In this document: in pieces, positions 4,228 to 7,740 of the stretch
How positions within the stretch are numbered: the first letter of the stretch is position 1
Layout: the number at the start of each line of letters is the position of its first letter
DNA from: Mycolicibacterium porcinum
Lineage (GTDB): Bacteria; Actinomycetota; Actinomycetes; Mycobacteriales; Mycobacteriaceae
Assembly (NCBI GenBank): GCA_001942045.1
Contig: MSTD01000013.1
Location: 70,823 to 134,822, forward strand
Direction: 5' to 3'
Length of the DNA stretch: 64,000 nt
Position numbers and translations under genes: made by a program
The notes under the pieces: model-generated
Seen by the model: only the letters and a program-made list of their open reading frames with translations
What the model was told of the DNA's origin: nothing
The model's database searches: none

Positions 4228-4944
4228 GTGAGCTATCCGCCGCAAGGCCCGCCGCCGTACGGCCCGCCGCCCCACGGGCAGCCTCCTTACGGGCAGCAGC
4301 CCCCGCATTGGCCACCACCGCCCTACGGCCAACCACCGCAGTGGCCTGCGGCCGGCCCGCCGATCCGGCCCAGGAAATCGGGGCTCGGCATCGCGATCGT
4401 CGCCGTTATCGCCGTCGTGAGCCTCTTGTTCGTCGGTTTCATCGGGTACGAGATCTACCGGGCGGACGCTGAAGGGCAGGACCGGACTGCCTATTCGGCA
4501 TCTGACTTCTCTGACGCATGCGACAACGACCACATCACCAACGCCGCCGAATACCGCGAGCCCTACAACGTCGTGGCGTTCTTCAAGGGGCTCGGTCTCG
4601 TGGATGAAATCTGGCTGTCGGTCGCGGATGACAAATGGGCCACGTCCGGCGACTTCACCGAGATCAATGTGGTCGCCTGCCTGGAGCGGAAAAGGGGCAG
4701 CGAGGCGAAGGTGACCTCGTGCGTCGACGACGATGACCACACAACGGTCAACTACTACTCCGTCGAGTACGAGATCACCTTCCGCGAGGCCAAGACCGGC
4801 AAGGTGATCATGGACGGGGGAACAGTGCCCGGTACTGCCGGAAGTTGCCCCGTCCTGGGCTCCTATGACAAGAGGTCTCGCAAGATGTACGCCAGGCCGG
4901 ACGAGGATGCGGTGCGGGCCGCGTTGGACGCGTTCGCAGGTTAG
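4228..4944 (+). CDS. Proline-rich single-pass membrane protein
   Basis: I do not recognise this 238-residue protein. It has an N-terminal cytoplasmic tail of about 48 residues made of PPxGPPPYG-type repeats, a single membrane helix (about residues 52-75, IAIVAVIAVVSLLFVGFIGY), and an outer domain with four or more cysteines (CDNDH, VACLERK, TSCVDDDDH, GSCPVLG) that could form disulfides. Such tails are common in actinobacterial DUF4333/DUF4190-type proteins. The GTG start at 4228 fits the repeat beginning. It lies between rsmE and phoH on the same strand. Confidence 0.75.
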   Translation: MSYPPQGPPPYGPPPHGQPPYGQQPPHWPPPPYGQPPQWPAAGPPIRPRKSGLGIAIVAVIAVVSLLFVGFIGYEIYRADAEGQDRTAYSASDFSDACDNDHITNAAEYREPYNVVAFFKGLGLVDEIWLSVADDKWATSGDFTEINVVACLERKRGSEAKVTSCVDDDDHTTVNYYSVEYEITFREAKTGKVIMDGGTVPGTAGSCPVLGSYDKRSRKMYARPDEDAVRAALDAFAG

Positions 4945-5083
4945 CGCCACGCCATCTCGCTGACCTGTGTGTTCAGTCGGCCCGCTTAACCAGTGGGGCG
5001 TGTCGTTGACCAGCGGTAAACTTGACAGGCAACGTACGGCACCGGGCCGTTTGGAAAACACGGAAAGCAGGCACAAACTCCAC

Positions 5084-7207
5084 GTGACGCCCCGCGACAC
5101 GACCGCTGACTCGTCGGCCACCGCATCGGAATCGGTCCGCAGCAGCATCACTGTTCCGCCCGACATCATCGTGGGCCTGCTCGGCTCGGCTGATGAGAAT
5201 CTGCGGGCCCTCGAAACACTTCTGGCTTCCGACATCCACGCCCGCGGCAATGAGATCACCTTCACCGGTGAGCCCGCCGACGTGGCGCTGGCTGAACGTG
5301 TGGTCGCCGAGCTGATCGCCGTCGCCTCCGCCGGGCAGGCGGTGACGCCCGAGACGGTACGGCACAGCGTCGCCATCCTCACCGGCACCGAAGACGAGTC
5401 GCCGGCCGAGGTGCTCACGCTCGACATCCTGAGCCGCCGCGGCAAGACCATCCGGCCCAAGACGCTGAACCAGAAGCGCTACGTCGATGCCATCGATGCG
5501 CACACCATCGTGTTCGGCATCGGCCCGGCCGGTACCGGCAAGACATACCTGGCGATGGCCAAGGCAGTCAGCGCGCTGCAGTCCAAGCAGGTGAACCGGA
5601 TCATCCTGACCCGCCCCGCGGTGGAAGCCGGTGAGCGCCTCGGTTTCCTGCCCGGCACATTGAGCGAGAAGATCGACCCGTATCTGCGTCCGCTCTACGA
5701 CGCGCTGCACGACATGATGGACCCCGAACTGATCCCAAAGTTGATGAGCGCCGGGGTAATTGAGGTCGCACCGTTGGCATACATGCGGGGCCGGGCCCAA
5801 CCCCTGTTCGCCAACGTGCTGACACCTACCGGGTTCCGGCCGATCGGTGAGCTCAAGGTCGGCGATTTCGTGATTGGTTCAGACGGGTCGCCGACTGAGG
5901 TGACGGGTGTATACCCGCAGGGCTTCAAGGAGATCTACCGCGTCTTCACTCAAGACGGCGCATCGACCCTCGCCTCCGGTGACCATCTTTGGGCGGTGTA
6001 CACGGCTTCCGATCGGCGACGGAACAAGCCGGCTCGGATACTCGAGACCAAGGAGATGATCGGAAACCTCCGTGCTGCTCATGCTCACCGCTACGAGCTA
6101 CCGGTACTGAGTGCGCCGGTGAAGTTCGAGTCTCGGCCCGTCCCGATGGACCCGTATGCACTCGGGTTGCTGTTGGGTGACGGAAGCTTCTCCTCGCGTG
6201 CGACTCCGAGTTTCACGACGAAGGATCCGGAGCTGGCAGAGGCGTTGGGACGGCTCATCCCGGGTATCGAGGTTCGACGCAAGACCGACATCGGATATGT
6301 GTTGAACCGGATCACCACACCCGGTGAGGTCATCACGATCGAGAACCCGGTGACGGGCGTGATGCGTCGACTCGGCCTGTCCGGCAAGAAATCCGAAGCG
6401 AAGTTCGTACCCGAGGATTACCTGTTCAATTCGGCGGATGTGCGTTTGGCGGTGCTGCAGGGACTTCTCGATACCGATGGTGGTCCGGTAACCCAAGAAG
6501 GCCGGACCTGCCGGATCCAGTACACGACGGTGTCTGATCGGTTGTGCGACAACGTGATCTTCCTCGTCGAGTCTTTGGGCGGTGTGGTTTATCTGCGGAC
6601 CCGGGATGCTGCCGGCCGCAAACCGGGCCTGGCCCGCGGCCGAGAGGTCCACCATCGGTACGACTCGAACGTTCTCGACATCCGCTTGCCCGAGGGCCTT
6701 ATCCCGTTCCGGCTCGCGCGCAAGGCCGAGAAGTACGCCGCGACGGGTGGGGGCCGTCCGATGCGATACGTGGACCGTATCGAACCCGTGGGCACCACGG
6801 AGGCGGTCTGCATCAGTGTCGCCGCAGAGGACTCCCTGTATGTGACCGAGGATTTCCTCTTGACGCACAACACCCTCAACGATGCGTTCATCATCCTCGA
6901 CGAGGCACAGAACACCACCGCCGAGCAGATGAAGATGTTCCTGACGCGCCTCGGCTTCGGCTCGAAAGTCGTTGTCACCGGCGATATCACGCAGGTGGAT
7001 TTGCCCGGCGGGGCCACCTCCGGGCTGCGGGCCGCGATGAACATCCTCGACGGTATCGAGGACATCCACTTCGCCGAACTCACCAGTGCCGACGTGGTCC
7101 GGCACCGCCTGGTGTCCGAGATCGTGGACGCCTATGCCCGACATGAGGAGCCGGCATTGCTCAACCGTGCCCAACGCCGTTCGTCGAACGGGCGGCCCCG
7201 CAGATGA
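5084..7207 (+). CDS. phoH: PhoH-like ATPase/RNA helicase-type protein, intein-containing precursor
   Basis: The host protein is the mycobacterial PhoH1-type P-loop ATPase (348 residues after splicing, normal length). I chose GTG 5084 because a GGAAAG precedes it and homology begins there; upstream codons look non-coding. Walker A is GPAGTGKT (147-154) and Walker B ILDEAQN lies just after the intein. The precursor is 707 residues: N-extein 1-237, intein 238-596, C-extein 597-707. The insertion falls at MRGR/TLNDAF, between the two Walker motifs, so an unspliced protein could not bind nucleotide normally. The stop overlaps ybeY by four bases (ATGA), as usual for this phoH-ybeY pair. Confidence 0.95.
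5795..6871 (+). mobile_element. Class 3-type intein with LAGLIDADG endonuclease, in phoH
   Basis: In-frame 359-residue insertion relative to uninterrupted PhoH proteins. It starts with Ala ([13 protein letters not shown]), not Cys or Ser, and ends in His-Asn followed by Thr of the extein. The residues of the class 3 WCT triplet are present: Trp66 in SGDHLW (block B), Cys339 in EAVCISV (block F) and Thr357 in LLTHN (block G). Two dodecapeptide motifs of a LAGLIDADG homing endonuclease are seen, ALGLLLGDG (122-130) and LQGLLDTDG (221-229), each with its acidic residue, so the element may still home. Confidence 0.93.
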
Positions 7208-7740
7208 GTGTCGAGGTATCCAACGAGTCGGGCATCGACGTCTCCGAGGACGAGCTGATCAGTGTCGCGCGGTTCGTCATCGCGAAGATGGACGTGAACC
7301 CGGCGGCTGAGCTGTCGATGGTGCTGGTGGACAGCGCCGCGATGGCCGACCTGCACATGCGGTGGATGGACCTGCCGGGGCCCACCGACGTGATGAGCTT
7401 CCCGATGGACGAGCTGGAGCCCGGGGGACGCCCGGATTCGCCTGAGCCGGGTCCGTCCATGCTCGGCGACATCGTGCTGTGCCCTGAGTTCGCCGAACAG
7501 CAGGCCGCCAAGGCCGGGCACTCACTGGGTCAGGAGTTGGCGCTGCTGACCGTGCACGGCGTGCTGCACCTGCTCGGCTACGACCACGCCGAACCGGACG
7601 AGGAAAAAGAGATGTTCGCGCTGCAGCGCCAGCTCCTCGAGGAATGGGTGGCTGATCAGGTCGAGGCGTACCACGCCGATCGGCAGAGCCAGAAAGATCA
7701 GCGCCTGCTCGACAAGTCCCGATATTTCGACGAACCGTGA
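7204..7740 (+). CDS. ybeY: Endoribonuclease YbeY
   Basis: YbeY is a zinc-dependent single-strand RNase acting in 16S rRNA 3-prime maturation and ribosome quality control. The signature H118-G-V-L-H122-L-L-G-Y-D-H128 is complete and followed by the usual acidic EEKEMF. The 178-residue length includes a mycobacterial C-terminal extension. It overlaps phoH upstream and the CBS-domain gene downstream, four bases each, so the three are almost certainly translated as a coupled set. Confidence 0.97.

Follow-up and report, generated by a model that had tools for sequence, protein, structure and literature searches.

A predicted class 3 intein with a LAGLIDADG homing endonuclease domain in the YbeZ/PhoL-type PhoH of Mycolicibacterium porcinum

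Class 3 inteins lack an N-terminal nucleophile and are defined by the WCT triplet, i.e., Trp at position B:12, Cys at F:4, and Thr at G:5 (PMC3196547, PMC5050341). Kelley et al. 2018 (PMC6195587) assign two PhoH inteins, OBK00716 from Mycobacterium fortuitum and EID13626 from M. xenopi, to class 3 on the strength of this triplet, and M. smegmatis is also described as having a PhoH intein (PMC7360933). Here, we describe an insert in the phoH gene of Mycolicibacterium porcinum (assembly GCA_001942045.1, contig MSTD01000013.1, positions 70,823 to 134,822; this stretch of 64,000 nucleotides is called the window, and positions refer to it). As far as the published description goes (PMC6195587), it resembles the M. 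fortuitum and M. xenopi elements in being a class 3 WCT intein of a mycobacterial PhoH. We are highly confident that the insert is a class 3, homing-endonuclease-bearing intein in a YbeZ/PhoL-type PhoH, that it would be spliced via Cys339, and that it has probably spread by homing and occasional horizontal transfer. The sequence, the insertion site, the signature residues, the predicted fold, the sporadic distribution, the decay of the endonuclease, and the conflicts between trees were computed here.

The intein translates into 359 residues, starting with Ala1 and ending with Thr357-His358-Asn359, with Trp66 and Cys339 in between. Six PhoH orthologues without the intein, taken from other genomes in the genus, aligned along both flanks without gaps, and exactly these 359 residues were absent from them between MRGR and TLNDAF. 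Three PhoH2 loci entered in the same comparison yielded no open reading frame that passed its filter and are not among the six. The placement of the intein between the Walker A and Walker B motifs, made in the initial annotation from the letters of the sequence, was thus confirmed by translation and alignment. The insert shows the general hallmarks of an intein: it is inserted in frame, orthologues provide an exact empty site, and it combines a predicted Hint fold with a His-Asn end and a Thr at position +1. An ordinary PhoH domain or a lineage-specific insertion would also be in frame, free of stop codons, and found at the same position in many species, as this segment is. We nevertheless give this explanation almost no credence: the segment is exactly absent from all six aligned orthologues, which argues against a normal domain, the site was scored uninterrupted in 215 of 248 sampled genomes of the genus (best E <= 8.2e-48), and the predicted fold is that of a Hint domain with a LAGLIDADG endonuclease.

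The residues expected for a class 3 intein were compared across homologues. A genome scan returned 58 loci; L054, which runs into a contig end, and seven loci that are not at the PhoH site (L061-L067) were left out, and the resulting alignment comprised the window and 50 complete PhoH-site loci. Position 1 is neither Ser, Thr, nor Cys, and all 51 rows share Ala1, His64, Trp66, Cys339, Thr357, His358, and Asn359. The same seven residues are invariant in the 120 PhoH inteins listed among 5544 protein matches (one of the 120, P0002, is the window's own protein). In a second alignment (A2), which included five phage rows and one intein from another site, His64, Trp66, Cys339, Thr357, His358, and Asn359 were invariant in 36 of 36 sequences. 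We also used HMMER to align the intein to gp41-1. Trp66 and Cys339 fall opposite the engineered Trp and Cys of the WCT-engineered protein (6riz) and opposite Phe and Asp of the wild type (6qaz), and their THN ends line up. In these alignments, the N-terminal stretch scored 36.6 and 32.3 bits, respectively; the stretch around Cys339 alone scored only 2.9 and -2.6 bits, and for the assignment of Cys339 to block F the alignments of 51 and 36 rows therefore carry more weight. The Ala start, the WCT assignment of Trp66, Cys339, and Thr357, and the +1 Thr had all been proposed beforehand, and the comparisons agree with them: Trp66 falls in block B, Cys339 in block F (weakly so against 6riz), and the +1 residue is Thr at all 50 occupied PhoH sites. 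The homologue search suggested at that stage recovered PhoH inteins with the same residues at the same site in other mycobacteria; the phage relatives are in other genes. The coordinates are summarized in Table 1.

Table 1. Positions in the window of the phoH gene, its intein, and the adjoining ybeY gene.
Feature	Position	Strand	Basis or conservation
phoH, YbeZ/PhoL type, intein-containing, 707 amino acids (aa)	5084..7207	+	Pfam PhoH 302.8 bits, split into two stretches
N-extein, ending in AYMRGR	5084..5794	+	Alignment with six intein-free orthologues
Walker A motif GPAGTGKT	5522..5545	+	Read in the sequence
Intein, 359 aa, class 3 (predicted)	5795..6871	+	Residues 238-596 of the 707-aa PhoH
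Ala1, no N-terminal nucleophile	5795..5797	+	Ala in 51/51
His64, block B His (B:10)	5984..5986	+	51/51
Trp66 (B:12), WCT triplet	5990..5992	+	51/51; faces the engineered Trp of 6riz
LAGLIDADG motif 1, ALGLLLGDG (Asp129)	6158..6184	+	Alignment of 51 inteins
LAGLIDADG motif 2, LQGLLDTDG (Asp228)	6455..6481	+	Pfam LAGLIDADG_3 41.3 bits, residues 215-276
Cys339 (F:4), predicted branch nucleophile of the WCT triplet	6809..6811	+	51/51; in a weakly aligned stretch, opposite Cys (engineered) in 6riz and Asp in 6qaz
Thr357 (G:5), His358, Asn359	6863..6871	+	51/51 each
C-extein, starting at the +1 Thr, stop included	6872..7207	+	Alignment with intein-free orthologues; +1 Thr in 50/50 occupied loci
Walker B region FIILDE	6887..6904	+	Read in the sequence
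ybeY	7204..7740	+	Overlaps the phoH stop; Pfam YbeY 131.3 bits

The predicted structure of the intein matched PI-SceI over its whole length, and the best fold match among mini-inteins was DnaBi1 of M. smegmatis, itself a class 3 intein (differences in structural Z of less than 1 were treated as ties). The model thus predicts a Hint fold combined with a LAGLIDADG endonuclease. Predicted helices lie at the two LAGLIDADG motifs (residues 120-129 and 214-227), and Asp129 and Asp228 are both kept in the window, so that the two intact motifs already read from the sequence find support in the PI-SceI-like fold.

The open reading frame delimited mechanically for phoH (4967-7207, 746 aa) is probably too long; most homologues among the matches listed have 703 to 708 aa, and we therefore place the start at the GTG at 5084. 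In eight genomes searched with PF02562, the match to the YbeZ-type gene was a single piece (positions 2-204) in six and two pieces (2-117 and 116-204) in the two that carry the intein. A second, PhoH2-like gene was separate and uninterrupted in all eight. The PhoH2 model gave no full match to the window gene, which scored 90 bits where the cut-off is 680. The PRK10536 PhoH model, at 196.6 bits, likewise stayed below its cut-off of 380, because the intein interrupts the gene. The interrupted paralogue, with ybeY and era as neighbours, is of the YbeZ/PhoL type and not PIN-PhoH2. The PF02562 search of the two intein-bearing genomes (G001, G242) detected no intact second copy of the YbeZ-type paralogue, only PhoH2 and weak matches.

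The endonuclease domain decays, whereas the splicing residues stay. The 51 inteins include 35 with a length of 350 aa or more, and the other 16 measure 278 to 347 aa; Asp129 and Asp228 are both retained in 32 of the former and 9 of the latter. Three related Nocardia inteins (L051, L052, L058) have 280 aa and carry AAA in the second LAGLIDADG motif, with all splicing residues intact. We calculated the proportions of nonsynonymous and synonymous differences (pN and pS). The mean pN/pS was 0.20 for the splicing parts and 0.40 for the endonuclease (216 pairs with pS < 0.6 in both); for the exteins it was 0.23, calculated over a different set of pairs (1238 of 1275). By these values, the splicing parts are constrained and the endonuclease less so.

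The PhoH intein is present in 27 of the 248 genomes sampled in the genus. Among the 215 uninterrupted genomes, 150 were listed as full 1-91 alignments, and the other 65 were assigned from the E-value. Six genomes belong to neither count: G037 and G109 have phoH pieces on different contigs (PF02562), G029, G073, and G129 have only a PhoH2-like full match above the cut-off, and G106 has a partial match. Outside the genus, the intein was found in 14 of 118 genomes in the genus of a Nocardia locus and in 14 of 59 in the genus of a Gordonia locus, as well as in Rhodococcus, Skermania, and Nonomuraea (67.5%). In one class of Chloroflexota, 2 of 151 genomes carried the PhoH intein at 61-65% identity, both with PhoH-like sequence directly after it; these cases point to transfer across phyla. 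Five other matches in the same class, at 32-36%, were other inteins and were not counted. In the Chloroflexota loci L045, L222, and L223, the intein is inside a PhoH-like gene, and the extein of L045 is 53% identical to that of the window.

Phylogenies of the intein and the extein sequences broadly agreed by genus. In the intein phylogeny, Rhodococcus falls inside the Gordonia inteins (two Gordonia sequences lie outside, with support of 98/82 and 96/84), within a group of Skermania, Gordonia, and Rhodococcus (100/99). In the extein phylogeny, Rhodococcus groups with Nocardia and Skermania (95/88). Because the trees agree by genus but conflict on Rhodococcus, the history of the intein is best described as mostly vertical descent and loss with some horizontal moves. 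The Chloroflexota branch is long, and its exact position in the tree is unsure. A recent transfer into M. porcinum was also considered: for the window and M. setense, pS is 0.187 for the intein versus 0.348 for the extein. This is one pair only, the most extreme of 1275, and the transfer is not claimed.

The residue at position +1 was compared between empty and occupied sites. Thr is present in 71 and Ser in 19 of 90 intein-free sites, and Thr in 30 of 30 mycobacterial occupied sites (Fisher p = 0.0033). The 90 empty sites (L114-L143, L161-L220) are the 30 best-match loci plus 60 picked from the 120 others among the 150 listed of 215; they exclude the six orthologue-alignment loci, similarity to a query with Ser sets the order of the list, and the Fisher test ignores kinship. 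The +1 residue is thus a weak lead for a determinant of homing.

Splicing chemistry, its efficiency, and homing activity were extrapolated from characterised relatives, with the class 3 reactions in PMC6195587, PMC3196547, and PMC7664689 as the analogy. The Hint domain would fold after translation of the interrupted PhoH. Cys339, aided by His64 and Thr357, would attack the peptide bond between Arg(-1) and Ala1 to form the block F branched thioester, from which the N-extein would be moved to the +1 Thr by transesterification. Cyclisation of Asn359 and an O-N shift would then release intact PhoH (MRGRTLNDAF). By this analogy, the window intein almost certainly splices by the Cys339 route. The unspliced precursor is presumably inactive, because the insertion falls just upstream of Walker B. 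The LAGLIDADG domain would cut intein-free phoH alleles, and the intein would probably spread by homing, with occasional horizontal transfer.

Several points weigh against this interpretation. Structural rank alone does not fix the class of an intein: in the structural comparison, the class 3 inteins 6rix and 6riy tie with Prp8 inteins, and 6zgq, a split intein of class 3, reaches no more than 15.5. The broad agreement of the trees by genus may mean that the recent history was largely vertical. Furthermore, class 3-like inteins can be dead, as described for Arth_1007 (PMC3196547), and this precedent, together with the lack of a nucleophile at position 1, could indicate that the window intein no longer splices, or that it splices by a class 1 or class 2 route with the WCT set being incidental. 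However, Cys F:4 and His B:10, which the window intein has, are absent from Arth_1007. None of the 51 inteins departs from the WCT triplet, His64, His358, or Asn359 despite the decay of the endonuclease; the insertion breaks a conserved gene ahead of Walker B, and the PF02562 search of G001 and G242 turned up no intact second copy of the paralogue; and the best structural match among mini-inteins is class 3. We therefore consider loss of splicing, or splicing by another route, very unlikely and retain Cys339-dependent class 3 splicing.

The intein might instead be retained because it acts on PhoH, and through PhoH on ribosome assembly, as a conditional switch. Peroxide inhibits DnaBi1, a class 3 intein of M. 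smegmatis, by way of a disulfide between Cys118 and Cys48 (PMC6195587), and zinc inhibits it as well (PMC7360933); the PhoH intein adjoins the ATPase core, and shortened inteins with altered endonuclease residues persist. The sporadic occurrence (27/248) speaks against a switch, and the difficulty of precise deletion also accounts for persistence. A redox switch like that of DnaBi1 was rejected for the window: the equivalent of Cys48 is Ile47 (Ile in 49 and Cys in none of the 51 inteins), an equivalence obtained by aligning 6bs8 to the Phrappuccino intein with HMMER and transferring the position by eye through alignment A2. The other two cysteines of the window intein, 239 and 251, lie inside the LAGLIDADG_3 match. 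Retention as a switch is accordingly improbable, and we found no evidence for the earlier suggestion that splicing regulates PhoH activity.

We hold it to be just as doubtful that PhoH inteins, including the shortened ones in which endonuclease residues are altered, persist in Mycobacteriales because their class 3 splicing, at the edge of Walker B in the YbeZ-type PhoH, conditionally gates the ribosome maturation that depends on YbeY, using a different chemistry from the disulfide of DnaBi1. For E. coli, an interaction between YbeZ and YbeY is reported by two-hybrid (PMC5101352). Such a gate may involve oxidants or metals acting directly on Cys339, or pairing of Cys60 with Cys339 in the Gordonia and Rhodococcus group. 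Cys60 is present near the block B His64 in 11 of 51 PhoH inteins, all from Gordonia, Rhodococcus, and Skermania loci, and is absent from the window; in these inteins, it is a possible redox partner of Cys339. If splicing were conditional, inteins would be linked to ribosome assembly. The association of PhoH proteins with toxins belongs to the biology of PIN-PhoH2. The gene studied here is the ybeY-linked YbeZ/PhoL type, PhoH2 being separate and uninterrupted in the eight genomes examined, and the initial description of an ATPase linked to RNA and toxin biology finds no support for this paralogue.

The gene order in the window, with others interspersed, is hrcA, dnaJ, an RsmE-type methyltransferase gene, a gene for a proline-rich protein, phoH, ybeY, a CorC/HlyC-type gene, era, and recO (Pfam; the RsmE type and the name era are our interpretation of the domains). 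The ybeY gene is the probable operon partner of phoH. The proline-rich, single-pass membrane-like protein encoded at 4228-4944, between the RsmE-type gene and phoH, has no Pfam match.

The closest named relatives among the matches listed are from M. conceptionense and M. farcinogenes (97%), which we take to be kin of M. fortuitum; the M. fortuitum PhoH intein is probably a close relative of the window intein. The finding is of a published kind and in the same gene, as class 3 mycobacterial PhoH inteins are already in print. We recognised no paper on the splicing of a PhoH intein in the literature searched, which was covered in part, with subscription papers mostly outside. The counts of occupied and empty sites, the series of shortened inteins, and the cross-phylum cases may be additional, as they were not found in this partially covered literature.

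DnaBi1 (6bs8) and DnaB-1 of M. chimaera (6rix, 6riy) are class 3 mini-inteins in DnaB without an endonuclease, which the window intein has, and they carry Cys where the PhoH intein has Ile47. The +1 residue is Ser in DnaBi1 (PMC6195587, PMC7360933) and Thr in the window. The nearest phage class 3 intein is in gp2 of Mycobacterium phage Phrappuccino, at 42% identity. The phage class 3 inteins share Ala1-Gln-Pro, the WCT triplet, the THN end, and LAGLIDADG motifs with the window intein; all five examined, out of 574 matching records, carry the Trp, Cys, and Thr, and Ala is the first residue in four of them (but not in the fifth as delimited here). They differ in their host genes, in their position directly after GK (four of five), and, for Phrappuccino, in a Cys at +1. 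Some names of phage genes seem to have been carried over through the intein. The gene annotated as PhoH in phage GX15bay (L006, MK557849.1) has no Pfam PhoH domain, and only its intein resembles mycobacterial PhoH. Several intein-bearing phage proteins (H1, H10, H13, H30, and H40) are named DarB-like antirestriction in RefSeq, versus terminase, helicase, or hypothetical protein in GenBank; these names, too, were perhaps transferred via the intein. PI-SceI, the yeast VMA intein, is larger, with 20% identity to the window intein, and is a class 1 intein with Cys1. Class 3 PhoH inteins are confirmed as a recurrent, mobile element of Mycobacteriales, present also in two Chloroflexota genomes, and they make available a series within a single gene that extends from full-length inteins down to forms of 278 residues.
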